From contig NZ_CSTE01000002.1 of NCBI RefSeq assembly GCF_001368915.1, positions 410,248 through 474,247 of the forward strand: 64,000 nucleotides of DNA. The letters are read 5' to 3'. This document shows positions 57,736 through 64,000 of the stretch, piece after piece. The number at the start of each line of letters is the position of its first letter. The stretch's first letter is position 1. The position numbers were made by a program, and so were the translations under genes. A model generated the notes under the pieces. The model saw only the letters and a list, made by a program, of their open reading frames with translations. It did no database searches and was not told the DNA's origin. The DNA is from Haloferax massiliensis. Its GTDB lineage: Archaea; Halobacteriota; Halobacteria; Halobacteriales; Haloferacaceae.

Positions 57736-57818
57736 GCGCGGGTAGCCAAGTGGCCAAAGGCGCAGCGCTTAGGACGCTGTCTCGTAGGAGTCCGCCGGTT
57801 CGAATCCGGTCCCGCGCA
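57736..57818 (+). tRNA. tRNA-Leu(TAG)
   Basis: Acceptor arms GCGCGGG and CCCGCGC pair perfectly with discriminator A. The anticodon loop CTTAGGA gives TAG, and the long variable arm after it is characteristic of class II tRNA-Leu. The T-loop is TTCGAAT. A TATA box TTTATATAT lies about 50 nt upstream. The 3' end is the probable attachment site of the element that follows. Confidence 0.96.
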
Positions 57819-57820
57819 TC

Positions 57821-57835
57821 CGCGGCTTCGCCGCG
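57821..57835 (+). terminator. stem-loop after tRNA-Leu
   Basis: CGCGGC-TTC-GCCGCG directly after the tRNA, followed by a short T-rich stretch (GATTTT), probably ends tRNA transcription. Confidence 0.5.
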
Positions 57836-57868
57836 TCTTGCGATTTTCACTTCGGCAGGAGACCCTAC

Positions 57869-59029
57869 ATGGAAGACCTGCCAATCACGCTCTCGCGCTG
57901 TAACGTTTTCACCAACGGGGAGTTGGACACCGAACGCCCCATCCCGGTGGTACCAAAATCGCACGACGGCGTACTGAACGAGAAGCAACTCGTGGACTAC
58001 AAAGACAGGAGAGTCCGATTCCTATCATGGCTGTTGAAGGTTGGAAAGCACCCAGAGAAGGCCGAAGGGTACTCGCCGTACACCGTTTACTCGACGGCGT
58101 ACCGAACCGCGCGCTTCGACCTGTGGCTCTGGGAGCAGAAGAACGAGTACACGTACCCGCCTCAATCCGATGACGCCGCCGCCTACATGGACTGGTTAGC
58201 GTTCTCCGACCAGAGTCAAGTGATGAAGGGGAAGGCACAGGAAGGCCTCCAGCACCTCTCGAAGTGGCTCCACCACGAGTACGGTTACGACGAGTGGGAG
58301 TTCGAGTACACCTTCGACGGCTCCGGCGGCAACCACCAGCCGCAGGACTTCCTCACGCGCGAGGAACGCCGCGCCATCCGACAGGCGGCCCTCAACGAGG
58401 GGAACATCCCGGCCTACGACTCCCTCACCGCGGAGGAGCGGAACGGGTGGAAACTCTACATCTCCAACGCCCTTGGCAAGCCCTACGACGAAGTGACGCG
58501 CGAGGACTGGAACGAGGTGAACGGGTGGGAAATCACCTCCCTCGTCTGGACCAGTCTCGACGCCGGTCTCCGTCCCAACGAGGTCCGCAACGCTCGGACG
58601 GAGTGGGTGGACACGAGGAACGGCGTTCTCCGTATCCCGAAAGACGAGTCCTCGAAGAACGAGGGTAACTGGACCGTCAGCCTCACGGAGCGGACCGCGA
58701 CGGCGCTGTCTCGCTGGCTGGACGAGCGCGAGCAGTACAAACGGTACGAGGACACCGACACGCTCTGGCTGACGAGCCACGGGAATCCTCACGGCTCCAG
58801 CAGCCTTCGGAGGCTCCTTCACCGACTCTGCGACCAAGCGGGCATCGAGACCGCGAATCGAAAGATGTCGTGGTACACGATTCGCCACTCGGTCGGGACG
58901 TACATGACCAAAGAGCGGGACCTCGCCGCGGCGAAAGCCCAACTCCGCCACAAGAACCCCATGACGACGATGAAGTACGACCAAGTGCCGGTCGAGGACC
59001 GCCGTAACGCCCTCGACAGGATGGGGTAA
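57869..59029 (+). CDS. tyrosine recombinase (integrase)
   Basis: This 386-residue integrase has an N-terminal SAM-like arm-binding/core domain (KDRRVRFLSWLL...DDAAAYMDWLAF) and a catalytic domain. The first catalytic Arg is in LDAGLRPNEV, the second Arg and following His in WYTIRHSVGTYM, the late His in QLRHKNP and the nucleophile Tyr in TTMKYDQV. The usual HxxR box reads YTIR, with Tyr instead of His. It probably integrates the element into tRNA-Leu. A zinc-finger gene follows 6 bp downstream. Confidence 0.9.
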   Translation: MEDLPITLSRCNVFTNGELDTERPIPVVPKSHDGVLNEKQLVDYKDRRVRFLSWLLKVGKHPEKAEGYSPYTVYSTAYRTARFDLWLWEQKNEYTYPPQSDDAAAYMDWLAFSDQSQVMKGKAQEGLQHLSKWLHHEYGYDEWEFEYTFDGSGGNHQPQDFLTREERRAIRQAALNEGNIPAYDSLTAEERNGWKLYISNALGKPYDEVTREDWNEVNGWEITSLVWTSLDAGLRPNEVRNARTEWVDTRNGVLRIPKDESSKNEGNWTVSLTERTATALSRWLDEREQYKRYEDTDTLWLTSHGNPHGSSSLRRLLHRLCDQAGIETANRKMSWYTIRHSVGTYMTKERDLAAAKAQLRHKNPMTTMKYDQVPVEDRRNALDRMG

Positions 59030-59035
59030 AATCCG

Positions 59036-59596
59036 ATGACGCCGCAGACAAACCCTCACCGGAACGCCGAGAAGGTCGTCAAGTGCCCCGTGGACGGTTG
59101 TGAGGCCGAGAAGTTGAGCCGCGGGATGCACCTTCACGTCCTTCGGAGCGCGGGAAACGGACACGGTCCACAGGGGGAAGTCCCCGAACATCTCGACTTC
59201 GAGAATCTGGAGGAGGTCGGGACGCGAGAGGTCGAAGTCAACTACCCCGAGGAACGGAAGACCGAGTCAGTCGCTCGGCTCTGCCCGTACTGCGGGAAAC
59301 CGTTCAAGGGAAAGAACGGGGTGCTGATTCACCTCGGGCAGGTAGAAGGCCGGAAGAACCACCCTGCCAACGCCTCCGAGGTCCACGAGCCGGGGGACTT
59401 CCCTGTGGTCGAACTCGATGAGGTCGAGAACGTCGTCGCCGTCGTTGAGGGACGGATACCGTCTTCGGCGGGGAACTGGCCTTACGAGGAGAGCGTCCCG
59501 GTCGAACGGGTCTACCGCCTCATCGCGGAGTTGCTGGCCGAGGGCCACCCCGAGACCGCAGCACGAGCGCGAAGCCTACTGCTCACCGACGAGTGA
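59036..59596 (+). CDS. protein with two C2H2-like zinc fingers
   Basis: This 186-residue protein has two finger-like modules: Cys17, Cys22, His34, His43 (CPVDGCEAEKLSRGMHLHVL...H) and Cys83, Cys86, His99, His109 (CPYCGKPFKGKNGVLIHL...H), then a charged helical C-terminus (VERVYRLIAELLAEGHPETAARARSLL). It is 6 bp behind the integrase gene. It may be a DNA-binding accessory such as an excision factor or regulator; I know no named family. Confidence 0.8.
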   Translation: MTPQTNPHRNAEKVVKCPVDGCEAEKLSRGMHLHVLRSAGNGHGPQGEVPEHLDFENLEEVGTREVEVNYPEERKTESVARLCPYCGKPFKGKNGVLIHLGQVEGRKNHPANASEVHEPGDFPVVELDEVENVVAVVEGRIPSSAGNWPYEESVPVERVYRLIAELLAEGHPETAARARSLLLTDE

Positions 59597-59624
59597 CTGA
59601 GAACTCGTTCTGAAACGACGGACG

Positions 59625-59646
59625 GGTGCGTGGGAATCCACGCACC
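59625..59646 (+). terminator. perfect hairpin after the zinc-finger gene
   Basis: Perfect 9-bp arms GGTGCGTGG and CCACGCACC with loop GAAT, 28 nt past the stop. It could end or stabilise the integrase/zinc-finger transcript, or be a protein binding site. Confidence 0.5.
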
Positions 59647-60298
59647 TATCCTCCGTTCGTCCTACCGGATACGGCGGGACACAACCGAGGGTCGGAGACC
59701 CCCGGATTGGATGTCTCGTCGTTCGCATTAAGTCCGAGCAACGACTCTTTGCCTTCCGTCCTTCACTCTGCTACTGTTGGACCACATTAGACCACCCCCG
59801 AAAATGTAGTGATTTTTGCCCTCAGTACGCGATAAAACTTACAATCAATTATGCGTCCGCCCGATTGCTGGCGTAACAACCATTAGAAGTAACGAGACCG
59901 GCGAAAGAAGTCGAGAGGAGGGAGAGTTAACGCAGATGGATTTTGAAGAATTTAAACCAAAACACCCGATAGGTTGACCACACGTCAAAATTGGTTTAGA
60001 GCAGGAAATCATCGCATCCTGCCGACTCTCTCCAAACGAAAATCACCGAAGCCCTGTGCGGCCACGAGAGCGGTTCTTTCACGTGAGATGATGGGAACCA
60101 CTTACCATTTGTTCAACGCGATTCTGGGGCCTGACAGACGTGTTAGATTGGATTCTGCTCGTGTGGCGAAGCCCGTGTTTTTCAGTAGGGGCGAAATGGG
60201 GGTCTTTTGCTGTCCAACTCGGTCTGTCTATCGTCGTCTCACTCAGGGGTCGTACTCGTTGAGAAGCGGGTTTCAATTCGTGGTACTGGAAGGCGAGG

Positions 60299-60430
60299 TC
60301 ATCGGATAGAAACACAACAGAGACAATCAAAGACAATAGGGTAGAAACTCGTTCATCGGATGGTCACTCAAGGGGGGACTACAGGGGGGCTACTACTACA
60401 GGGTATCAACTCGTTGTTCCTATCCGATGA
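60299..60430. repeat. TCATCGGAT repeats, direct and inverted
   Basis: TCATCGGATAG (60299-60309) recurs as TCATCGGATGG (60353-60363) and, inverted, as CTATCCGATGA (60420-60430). Between the last two lies GGGGGCTACTACTACAGGG, resembled by GGGGTACTACTACGGGG near 60540. ACTCGTT recurs nearby. The set resembles iterons or operator clusters. Confidence 0.6.
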
Positions 60431-60876
60431 GGGCCGCCTTTAGAGTACGTTAGTGTAAACACGTCTTTCTCTACAGTATTGAACAACGTGCTGTAAGAAC
60501 GGTATTGAAACACGGGGCAGTCCACGAGGGGAAACCCTACGGGGTACTACTACGGGGATGTGTGCTACAGACTTGACACACCTGTTCCGGGGCCTTCGGC
60601 AATCGAGCCGCCGACCGAGGCGCGAGAGAACTCTTGCTTGACGTAATCACTCGTCCAATCCCGCGTCACCACGTGAGTGTTATCCTTCGATACGGACAGA
60701 ATTAATTAGAAAACACCGTTTGTTTTGTGTTTTTGTGATTGGGTATACTTTTGTCAATTTTTACTTTTACCCCCGTTTCGCCCTTTCTGCCGTTCGATAA
60801 GAGGATTACAAATTGCCACCGTCCATGAGGGTGGGAATTCCGCCCGTAAGAAAAGGACAAATTTGGGTTGACTGGC

Positions 60877-60892
60877 TACCCTGTACAGGGTA
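60877..60892. promoter_or_regulatory. perfect 16-bp palindrome TACCCTGTACAGGGTA
   Basis: This is self-complementary over all 16 bases. The half site ACAGGGTA also occurs at 60398-60405. It lies about 190 bp upstream of the methyltransferase start. An operator for an element-encoded regulator is likely. Confidence 0.6.
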
Positions 60893-61082
60893 CGTTTCCC
60901 GAAAGCAACAGTCCACTACGAGAGACCTACGCCGCCCTCATCGGCTGACTGCCGAGTGCCAAACGAGCGAGGAGCAACGTAGACGCCGGGGTATCCCGAA
61001 ATCAGGGAAATTGAGAGACTTTTCAAGTTGACTCTCAGCAACTCGACTACTTTTATGAAGGCCTATTGAGTTGAGGCCGCTA

Positions 61083-64000
61083 ATGGCAGACCCTTCGGCT
61101 CTACACGACTCTCTCCAAGCCATCGCCGGACAGGTCGATGGCGACATGAGCGAGCGTGATGTTGAAAACCTCTTTCTGGAACACGGGTTCTACGACGCGC
61201 TTGACTACGAGGGAACGGGCACGGACATCCGTAGCGAGTTCACGCTTCCAGATGACCGGCGACCCGACTACATCACACTCGACTCCAACGAAGCGGTCAC
61301 GGCGGTCTACGAGTTCAAGACGACTGGTCGAGACCTCCCGCCCCACGAGTCGCAACTATTCCACTACATGGACTACCTCCGCTCGGAGTTCGGAGTGCTG
61401 ACCAATGGGGAACAACTGCGTCTCTATCGCCGGGGTCAGAACTCTCCGATTCTGATTGTCTCGCTCGACTCGGCGACGGAAAGTGACGCCCGAGACCTCG
61501 CCAGTTCGCTCCAGAAACGAGAGTTCGACCTCACGAACCCTGACCACGTGAATCGGTTCCTGTCCGAACTCGACCCGATTCCGCTCAACGAGGAGGCGGA
61601 ACTCGGGCAGGCTCACTTCTTCGACACCTTCCGGCTTGAAGAAGGAAGCCCCTTCGCCGACCTCGTCACAGGGATGATGGACCTGCTCCACGAACTCAGA
61701 GACGACGAGGAGGCCAAGTTCGTCAAAGGGGCGTACGACTTCTGGGAAGCGACCTACGCGAGCGAGCCGGACGAGGTTCCGGCCTCTTGGGACCCGTTCA
61801 TCGACGGGAAGCAGTCCCTCCGTGATTTCATGTTCTGCTTGGAGAGCGGTCACGCGGTCCTCGCGCGGCTGCTTCTGGCGAAGGCGACCGAGGACCACCA
61901 GTTTTTCGCCGGTACGGGGTACGACGGGATGGAGGACTACTTCCGTGGACTACAGGGATTCAGCGACTCAATCAACCTCGACGCGTTTCCGGTTGCCGCG
62001 GACAACCTCATCGACGACATGCAGGAGCAGTTAGTCGAAGGACTGTTCCAAGACGACATCTTCGTGTGGTGGACCGACGGCTACGCGGAACAACTCTCCC
62101 GATTGCACGAGTCAGGGGCGAATCAGTTCAAGGCCGTGGCCGAGGGGACGGGGTCGGTCGAACGAATCAGCGCGGCCACTCGGGACCGATTCAGCCGGGC
62201 GGTCGCCGAAGTGTTCCTCAGCATCCTTCGGTTCGATTTCTCCCACGTCGAAGGCGACTTGCTCGGCGACCTCTACCAGCGGTACTTCGACCCGGAGACG
62301 CGGAAGGCGCTCGGGGAGTTCTACACGCCCCAACCGGTCGTTGACTACATCATGGACGGCGTCGGCTACGACCGCGGCGTCTCGAACAGACGACTCATCG
62401 ACCCTTCCTGTGGGTCCGGGACGTTCCTCGTGGAAGCCGTTGAGCGGTACATCGCCGACGTTGAACGCTACGAGGACGACCCCGACTGGCAGGACAAACT
62501 CCGCGACCTCTGTACCCGCCCGCGCATCGTCGGTCTCGACATCCACCCGTTCGCCGTGCTGATGGCTCAGATTCGGTTCGTGGTCGCCATCCTCCCCGCC
62601 TACCGAAAGGCGAAACAGGCGAACTCCAACTTTACCCTGCGACGGCTTCCGATTTACCGGACGGATTCCCTTCGGAACGAGCGCAAACTCTCCGGGGTGG
62701 ATTTGGGGACCGGAGACGCGGAGACGTGGCAGTCGCCCCTCGATGCGTGGGACGAGGACGAGAAGGAGGTCAAAGTCCCGGTCCCGCTCCCGGTCGAAGT
62801 GGACGAGGAAGACGGGGTCGAAACCGAGGACGGCTTCCTCGTTCGCCGCGTCCGTATGCCGCTCTACACGACGATTCGAGCGGAGACGAGCGTGAAGAAC
62901 TTCGGGGAGTATTTCGCGGCCCTGCAAGGCGTGCTTGACACCGTCAAAGACCACATGGCCCAGTTCGGTGATACCTCCGACTGGGATTGGACCTACGGCG
63001 GTGGCCTCGAACCGCGAATCAACCGGTACACCTCCCAAGAGTACGACGGGTTGGAGGAGTTCTTCGAGGAGTACGTCAACGACATGCTGGAGAACGTCCG
63101 CTACCTCAAAGAGGAACACAACGACGGGCGGCTGTTCAAGATGTTCGAGGACACCGTATTGGCTCTCGTCGTCAAGAACTACATGGAATACGACTACGTG
63201 GTGGGCAATCCCCCGTACGTCCGAATCCAGAACCTCCCGGACAAGCAGAAGGCCATGATGAGCCGTCTGTACGACGCCACGACGGGGAACTACGACATCT
63301 ACTGTCCCTTCTACGAGCGCGGTCTCGACTGGCTGAGAGACGACACGGGGCGACTCGGATACATCACTCCGAATCAGTTCATGGTCACGGACTACGGCGA
63401 GGGTCTACGGAAGGTGATGCTCGAAGACAGCCGCATCAAGGAAGTGTACGACTTCCGTGACTCCGGCGTCTTCGAGGACGCGACCAACTACCCCGCCATC
63501 GTGATTCTTGAGGACGAATCCGATGAGGCCGCCCGTGAGGAGAACCAGATTCGGTGTGTTCGGGTGAAGGCGAACACGGACGATGGTGACGACCGCGAAC
63601 TGGACGAGGCCATCATCGAGTCGGTACGCGACCACCGCGGCGAGCCGGGCCACTCTGACGAGTTCATCGACGTGTTCGACTTCCCGCAGGCGGAGTTAGA
63701 CGAGGGGTACTGGTCGTTGATGCCGCCCGAGGAATTACAGGTCACTAAGAAGTTAGAGTCAAACAGCACCGATAGTTTTGGAGCAATAACTGATGCTATC
63801 TTTGCTGGGACACAGACGAGCGCAAACAAGGTCTATTTAGTCAAACCAGTCAACGCGAACCGAATTGAGCCAGAGGACGGTGGAGATACTGTCAGAGTTG
63901 TTCCAACAGGGGAGAATCGAGAATACGAAATCGAGACAGACCTACTCTGTCCGTGGTTAAAAGGCAAGGACGTTGGGCGCTGGCGTGGGGAGTGGTCAGG
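61083..64000 (+). CDS. Type IIG-like restriction endonuclease / adenine methyltransferase, 3' end outside window
   Basis: The first 972 codons run to the window end without a stop. An N-terminal PD-(D/E)xK-like site is seen (Asp62, Glu77, Lys79: RPDYITL...YEFK). The N6-adenine methyltransferase core has motif I DPSCGSGTF (440-448) and motif IV NPPYV (709-713), and a target-recognition region follows from about residue 880. This layout fits single-chain Type IIG (Eco57I-like) enzymes; a Type I HsdM-like or BREX PglX-like protein is less likely given the nuclease domain. TATA TTTTATG lies about 30 nt before the ATG. Confidence 0.85.
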   Translation, partial: MADPSALHDSLQAIAGQVDGDMSERDVENLFLEHGFYDALDYEGTGTDIRSEFTLPDDRRPDYITLDSNEAVTAVYEFKTTGRDLPPHESQLFHYMDYLRSEFGVLTNGEQLRLYRRGQNSPILIVSLDSATESDARDLASSLQKREFDLTNPDHVNRFLSELDPIPLNEEAELGQAHFFDTFRLEEGSPFADLVTGMMDLLHELRDDEEAKFVKGAYDFWEATYASEPDEVPASWDPFIDGKQSLRDFMFCLESGHAVLARLLLAKATEDHQFFAGTGYDGMEDYFRGLQGFSDSINLDAFPVAADNLIDDMQEQLVEGLFQDDIFVWWTDGYAEQLSRLHESGANQFKAVAEGTGSVERISAATRDRFSRAVAEVFLSILRFDFSHVEGDLLGDLYQRYFDPETRKALGEFYTPQPVVDYIMDGVGYDRGVSNRRLIDPSCGSGTFLVEAVERYIADVERYEDDPDWQDKLRDLCTRPRIVGLDIHPFAVLMAQIRFVVAILPAYRKAKQANSNFTLRRLPIYRTDSLRNERKLSGVDLGTGDAETWQSPLDAWDEDEKEVKVPVPLPVEVDEEDGVETEDGFLVRRVRMPLYTTIRAETSVKNFGEYFAALQGVLDTVKDHMAQFGDTSDWDWTYGGGLEPRINRYTSQEYDGLEEFFEEYVNDMLENVRYLKEEHNDGRLFKMFEDTVLALVVKNYMEYDYVVGNPPYVRIQNLPDKQKAMMSRLYDATTGNYDIYCPFYERGLDWLRDDTGRLGYITPNQFMVTDYGEGLRKVMLEDSRIKEVYDFRDSGVFEDATNYPAIVILEDESDEAAREENQIRCVRVKANTDDGDDRELDEAIIESVRDHRGEPGHSDEFIDVFDFPQAELDEGYWSLMPPEELQVTKKLESNSTDSFGAITDAIFAGTQTSANKVYLVKPVNANRIEPEDGGDTVRVVPTGENREYEIETDLLCPWLKGKDVGRWRGEWS

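Follow-up and report, generated by a model that had tools for sequence, protein, structure and literature searches.

Introduction

Cryptic integrated elements of Thaumarchaeota (PMC6563490) and tRNA-borne genomic islands (Islander; PMC4383910) carry an integrase gene, are mostly smaller than 20 kb, and sit in the 3' region of a tRNA gene, which is restored upon insertion while a displaced tRNA fragment marks the far end. Such elements also carry restriction-modification cargo, often without a recognisable replication gene. Among viruses of haloarchaea, earlier work has established that tailed Hafunaviridae can integrate into tRNA genes (PMC7230728, PMC8651126). In the HF1 group, the methyltransferase gene belongs to a segment that has gained and lost genes and is close to the integrase and attP (PMC7230728). 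Pleolipovirus SNJ2-type integrases (reviewed in PMC8371274) are likewise haloarchaeal tyrosine integrases that target tRNA genes; their very short att site lies at the end of the tRNA to which the amino acid is attached. Type IIG enzymes of the Eco57I/TaqI_C class combine nuclease-like, N6-adenine methyltransferase, and target-recognition domains in one polypeptide.

Here, we analyse a locus in a 4.0-Mb Haloferax genome that belongs to the tRNA-borne archaeal integrated elements with restriction or defence cargo, a class already known. Its integration machinery is common to tailed viruses of the same hosts, and in this respect it is therefore an ordinary kind of element. Unlike the described cryptic elements, it is haloarchaeal, belongs to a specific tRNA-Leu(TAG) integrase clade, carries a recurring zinc-finger gene that viruses have as well, and displays a visibly foreign tRNA 3' half. 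The clarity of that foreign half, a sister element with swapped cargo, and an integration module common to tailed haloviruses make the case unusual. We are highly confident in the reading that a 9,821-bp element (core to core) entered tRNA-Leu(TAG) by its own tyrosine recombinase, using a hafunavirus-type integration module and bringing exchangeable, most likely antiviral cargo. It offers a well-resolved case of trade in haloarchaeal defence genes, in which a small integrase platform stays at a constant tRNA gene while its cargo changes.

Results

Junctions and empty sites define an element in tRNA-Leu(TAG)

The window, the whole stretch of 64,000 nucleotides analysed, corresponds to C2:410248-474247, and region L007 was used to read past its end. 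ARAGORN, open reading frames, and Pfam bore out the gene order given by the initial annotation, in which an integrase, a zinc-finger protein, a long non-coding segment, and a restriction-methyltransferase follow the tRNA 3' end. The last of these genes ends 991 bp beyond the window. The annotation had also suggested a search past position 64000 for a repeated tRNA 3' end; the repeat is present, and the extension revealed two more genes within the element, which brings the credible protein-coding genes from attL to attR to five.

Features of the tRNA-Leu(TAG) element. Positions are window coordinates unless prefixed; window coordinate = L007 + 53753.
Feature	Position	Strand	Basis or remark
tRNA-Leu(TAG), chimeric (attL)	57736..57818	+	ARAGORN; host 5' part, element-borne 3' part
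16-bp core GCGCTTAGGACGCTGT	57765..57780	+	exact attL/attR identity; crossover inside
Left arm-like motif CGATTTTCACTTCGGCAG	57841..57858	+	imperfect inverted repeat of CTGTCGAAGTGGAAATTGG
Tyrosine recombinase (integrase), 386 aa	57869..59029	+	Pfam PF00589, motifs, clade placement
Cys/His (zinc-finger-like) protein, 186 aa	59036..59596	+	phrog_14797 match
Non-coding region, 1,486 bp	59597..61082	.	without credible ORF
Type IIG-like restriction-methyltransferase, 1,302 aa	61083..64000, cut by window end	+	whole gene L007:7330-11238
Beta_protein-like gene, 317 aa	L007:11338-12291	+	past window end
HSDR_N-domain gene, 396 aa	L007:12439-13629	-	past window end
Right-end motif CTGTCGAAGTGGAAATTGG	L007:13779-13797		past window end
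attR copy of tRNA 3' part	L007:13833-13886 = C2:477833-477886; window-equivalent 67586-67639		past window end

Several observations support the initial proposal of an integrative element with the tRNA as its attachment site. First, a genome search with the tRNA region, followed by reading onward, identified attR as the displaced 3' half of the host tRNA. The attL and attR copies match exactly over the core and diverge on either side, forming a direct repeat with one copy in an intact tRNA gene. The core covers the anticodon loop, the 7 nt CTTAGGA, together with the greater part of its stem, and thus differs in placement from the SNJ2 att site.

Second, comparison with the loci of this tRNA in 14 other Haloferax species revealed precise empty sites. 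The tRNA of G011 and of G001 runs straight on into the attR sequence and the flank beyond it, with about 99% identity over 147 bp. When the two flanks of the element were joined at the core, they aligned without a break to the empty sites of G001, G011, G002, G003, and G006 (776-808 bp in the closest), and continuity with relatives, for which the annotation had recommended a comparison with empty-site strains, is restored exactly at the core.

Third, the integrase is patchily distributed: a nucleotide search of 15 Haloferax species found it at this locus only here and in H. mucosum, and a protein search found none in 11 of 12 other Haloferax genomes. Together with the empty sites, this result runs counter to the possibility, raised at the outset, that all relatives might carry the same genes with no junction. 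Finally, GC content is 50-64% within the element and 65-69% outside it.

Relatives that lack the element do carry copies of the tRNA 3' end, at a distance of about 100 bp downstream of this tRNA.

The element encodes its own integrase, which matches Pfam Phage_integrase (PF00589, E=1.5e-18) and has the catalytic positions R235, Y336xxR339, H361, and Y370 in place. Close to the two att copies, the left and right arm motifs are complementary at 13 of 15 positions (best of 30 shuffles, 12), and the right motif is kept in the H. mucosum element. These motifs are putative integrase arm sites, although the left one could instead be part of the int promoter. Integration by tyrosine recombination is strongly indicated. 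In the mechanism that we propose, the recombinase of the element would catalyse site-specific recombination at tRNA-Leu(TAG), with crossover inside the core, over the anticodon stem-loop; the element would supply a new 3' half and the host's own half would move to the far end, so that the tRNA would stay whole but chimeric. The integrase probably performs this reaction, and excision presumably still occurs.

A tRNA-Leu(TAG) integrase clade with exchangeable cargo

Integrase relatives at E<=1e-60 were found in 164 of 392 genomes of the order, and we examined twenty neighbourhoods of such genes as well as further ones reached through the zinc-finger gene. In the closest clade, each of the 14 cellular integrases follows tRNA-Leu(TAG) at a distance of 49-89 bp; more distant integrases lie mostly behind tRNA-Glu(TTC), tRNA-Glu(CTC), or tRNA-Leu(TAA). 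In a maximum-likelihood tree rooted at its midpoint, the tRNA-Leu(TAG) integrases and that of virus HSTV-2 formed one group (15 rows, support 100/99), and this clade spans several haloarchaeal families. Thus, the element, which the initial annotation put forward as a candidate new one, does not stand alone: it is a member of this clade, with a sister in H. mucosum.

The H. mucosum element occupies the same tRNA-Leu(TAG). Its integrase is 94% and its zinc-finger protein 89% identical in amino-acid sequence, and the right end is kept. Its enzyme is a different, 1,166-residue type IIG-like protein encoded on the opposite strand. This comparison shows directly that cargo has been exchanged while the integration module stayed constant. 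Across the clade, cargo is varied and often of defence type. Type IIG or Eco57I-like enzymes are found in this genome, H. mucosum, G200, G253, and G354; a DpnII nuclease with a Dam-type methylase in G161; a TIR-domain protein in G377; and a FokI-like domain, by a weak match, in G165. Not all cargo of the clade is recognisably defensive; G196, for example, has a PAS histidine kinase.

Cargo genes and predicted functions

The restriction-methyltransferase contains Eco57I, N6_Mtase, and TaqI_C domains, with motifs DPSCGSG at 440 and NPPY at 709, and so combines N6-methyltransferase motifs and a TaqI_C-type specificity domain in one chain, as type IIG enzymes do. It scores 1638 bits against phrog_16674 and is a good match to the PADLOC IIG models (REase_MTase_IIG). 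At its N-terminus, D62, E77, and K79 (D62...E77-x-K79) have a PD-(D/E)XK arrangement. The HSDR_N match there is 23.6 bits, just below the Pfam cut-off of 25.1, and the enzyme could for this reason be active in methylation only. Assignment of the protein to BREX as PglX was rejected (BREX_2_MTaseX, 146 bits versus the NCBIfam cut-off of 400), and the element contains no other brx or pgl gene.

The 317-residue protein encoded next matches Pfam Beta_protein (PF14350) at 15.2 bits, below the gathering score of 27, and its PDB matches, which cover about 45 residues, are to designed repeat proteins and include no useful relative. A 57% relative in G051, which is from another family, directly follows the C-terminal part of a similar enzyme; given this same gene order, the enzyme and the Beta_protein-like gene form a recurring pair. 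Such an adjacent gene distinguishes both loci from type IIG enzymes as described, and we found no description of the pairing in the literature consulted. The 396-residue protein has an HSDR_N_2 domain (E=4.3e-9). Its 45% relative in G197 lies within a tRNA-Leu(TAG) element, alongside a zinc-finger protein and a related enzyme.

The exchangeable cargo between the ends comprises the type IIG-like enzyme with its partner gene and, in addition, the HSDR_N nuclease-domain protein. The most likely role of these proteins is to shield the host against viruses and, through the host, the element itself. The domain content agrees with the description "defence-carrying" in the initial annotation; for its functional side, we infer from the domains that the cargo restricts viruses.

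The 186-residue Cys/His protein belongs to phrog_14797 (E=1e-61), a family with no annotated function, and may be a regulator or a recombination accessory. Its relatives also occur in further tRNA-linked loci. The idea that this protein is a constant part of all tRNA-Leu elements was rejected, as the G161 and G200 elements lack it and other tRNA-linked loci have it.

Between this gene and the enzyme gene, the non-coding region has a GC content of about 49-54%, compared to 65-69% in the flanks, and carries direct and inverted TCATCGGAT repeats. Two blocks, at about 59598-59768 and 60291-60467, are about 80% identical in nucleotide sequence to the H. mucosum element. The segments tried fold better than shuffled sequences (z about -2.7 to -3.8), as inverted repeats alone would also cause. 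Rfam found nothing beyond tRNA, no matches were obtained among 50,697 phage records or in plasmid collections, and outside Haloferax there was one 33-base match only; no known RNA and no viral or plasmid origin can therefore be named. The region is a likely candidate for a control region or origin.

A foreign tRNA half as a probable record of a previous host

The 3' half of the tRNA beyond the core is CTCGTAGGAGTCCGCCGGTTCGAATCCGGTCCCGCGCA in this genome. In other Haloferax loci, it is GGTGTAGACCTTCGCAGGTTCGAACCCTGTCCCGCGCA (one with a single substitution), and the same form is found in attR here. Between these sequences, 10 of 38 positions differ, among them the two partners of a T-stem pair. 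One type of 3' half is common to all 14 other Haloferax loci, from which this genome deviates. The other tRNA-Leu genes recovered from this genome by the same search were GAG and CAG. By contrast with the Haloferax loci, the 52-nt form of this genome's tRNA matches with zero mismatches in at least four other haloarchaeal genomes (G161, G370, G265, and G182). G161, which has the closest integrase outside Haloferax (86%), contains an 11-kb element of its own with this form at each end.

The tRNA is thus a host-element chimera, and the simplest reading is that the element imported its half from an earlier host and displaced the native half to attR. Insertion would in this way have rewritten the variable arm and T-arm of a leucine tRNA and, because the incoming half differs from that of the host, have left a readable record of its source. 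A unique donor was rejected, since the exact match in at least four genomes means that no single donor host can be named.

This record also bears on the view that the locus is a dead genomic island, an old and fixed integration retained because its restriction system makes loss costly. The element is known here only as an integrated copy, and its attL and attR tRNA halves differ, as might be expected of an old insertion; import of a foreign half, not decay, accounts for that difference, however. Moreover, the reading frames of the integrase, zinc-finger protein, and enzyme are all open, the catalytic residues are present, both ends retain intact core and arm motifs, and the element is patchily present across the genus. 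We therefore regard a dead island as unlikely and favour an element that entered by its own recombinase.

An integration module shared with Hafunaviridae

Integrase relatives with about 66-67% identity were detected by tblastn of phage records in HSTV-2 (67%), HRTV-11, HRTV-2, HCTV-6, and others. Searched in the same way, the zinc-finger protein has relatives in 51 haloarchaeal virus records (47-56% identity in Hafunaviridae), and the restriction-methyltransferase is matched over its full length, at 65%, in HF1, HF2, HJTV-1, and their relatives. IMG/VR scans with the integrase and with the zinc-finger protein gave no matches.

In HSTV-2, an exact 3' part of tRNA-Leu(GAG) lies directly upstream of the integrase gene and constitutes a matching attP, with the same layout of inverted arm motifs (14 of 15 positions complementary). 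Of 119 Haloferacaceae genomes, 86, including this one, contain this 54-nt tRNA part, in most cases with no mismatch. The main texts of the literature consulted contained no statement of this attP. A hafunavirus-type integrase with a tRNA attP is likewise present in the element, and its integration module (integrase, tRNA-half core, and inverted arm motifs) is of the same kind as that of these tailed viruses, from the HF1/HF2 group to HSTV-2 (PMC7230728, PMC8651126). The targets differ: tRNA-Leu(GAG) for HSTV-2, tRNA-Thr(GGT) for the HF1 group, and tRNA-Leu(TAG) for this element, which at 9.8 kb also differs in having no recognisable structural or replication gene of a virus.

These relationships could reflect a viral satellite, or a hafunavirus provirus reduced in size, that depends on a hafunavirus helper for replication, packaging, or spread and whose non-coding region serves as an origin or packaging signal. 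The Hafunaviridae relatives of the integrase, zinc-finger protein, and restriction enzyme fit such an origin, as do the nesting of the HSTV-2 integrase inside the element clade and the direct and inverted repeats in the conserved non-coding region. However, none of the five credible genes is a capsid, portal, terminase, or tail gene as expected of a Hafunaviridae provirus, and no packaging, replication, transfer, or regulatory gene was recognised in the element; conjugation genes are also absent from its predicted genes. The non-coding region lacks a match among the phage records, and the restriction and zinc-finger genes are far apart in the viruses, which means that the element did not arise by simple deletion from such a virus. 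A satellite or provirus consequently seems improbable to us. We consider it a long shot that the whole element family consists of small hafunavirus satellites that have the integration module and a zinc-finger regulator in common with the viruses, respond to a helper through the conserved non-coding region, spread between haloarchaeal families in virus particles, and exclude competing viruses by their exchangeable restriction systems; were this so, the host from which the element last came would be recorded in the foreign tRNA half. Under the preferred reading, a self-integrating element with exchangeable cargo, the shared integration module still ties defence elements to tailed haloviruses, and a helper-virus relationship is testable in Haloferax, which has good genetics.

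Finally, vertical inheritance as host DNA, with the downstream tRNA fragment as a chance or unrelated repeat, could appeal to the downstream tRNA 3'-end copies of element-free relatives but is refuted by the comparison of empty-site loci and the continuous alignment of joined flanks exactly at the core, as well as by the absence of the genes from relatives, the GC shift, and the H. mucosum sister element at the same site.

Copies of tRNA-Leu sequence and an apparent attP

A 54-nt tRNA-Leu(GAG) segment in the tailed halovirus HSTV-2 is apparently its attP, and this segment has exact matches in haloarchaeal genomes, including that of H. massiliensis. At tRNA-Leu(TAG), the last ~22 nt of the gene were repeated 94–129 bp downstream in all 13 Haloferax species lacking the element, with two or three copies in some flanks and hairpin-like spacers. 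A copy was also present in genome G016 and, in the non-Haloferax genome G161, sat after the attR of that genome's own element. These downstream copies may be scars left by past insertions, or they may form a conserved trailer.

Cargo genes and a second integrase

The adjacency of the restriction-methyltransferase C-terminal part and the Beta_protein-like gene in another family's genome, beside a XerC-type integrase, suggests a two-gene system. The zinc-finger gene recurred near tRNA-Ala, tRNA-Val, tRNA-Gly, and tRNA-Ser genes, a few kb away at most; at locus L133, it adjoined an 83% relative of the element's restriction-methyltransferase. Within 19 kb at the tRNA-Glu(TTC) integrase locus of H. 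massiliensis, we found an N6-MTase-like match and a gene pair that looks like an SbcCD-like nuclease–ATPase.

Positions of related features (C2, H. massiliensis contig; L007, its continuation past the window; other L numbers, comparison loci)
Feature	Position	Remark
Apparent attP for tRNA-Leu(GAG), HSTV-2	L122:5890-5943 (KC117376.1)	directly upstream of HSTV-2 integrase
tRNA-Leu(TAG) end copies	L039-L045, L047-L052, L054	downstream flank
tRNA-Leu(TAG) end copy, H. massiliensis	L007:13959 (C2:477959)	
Restriction-methyltransferase C-terminal part and adjacent Beta_protein-like gene	L147:1498-3928	genome of another family
Zinc-finger gene near tRNA genes	L133, L134, L135, L137, L138, L139	
Second integrase, same superfamily as element integrase	L111:1285-2649 (C2:225284-226648)	behind tRNA-Glu(TTC)
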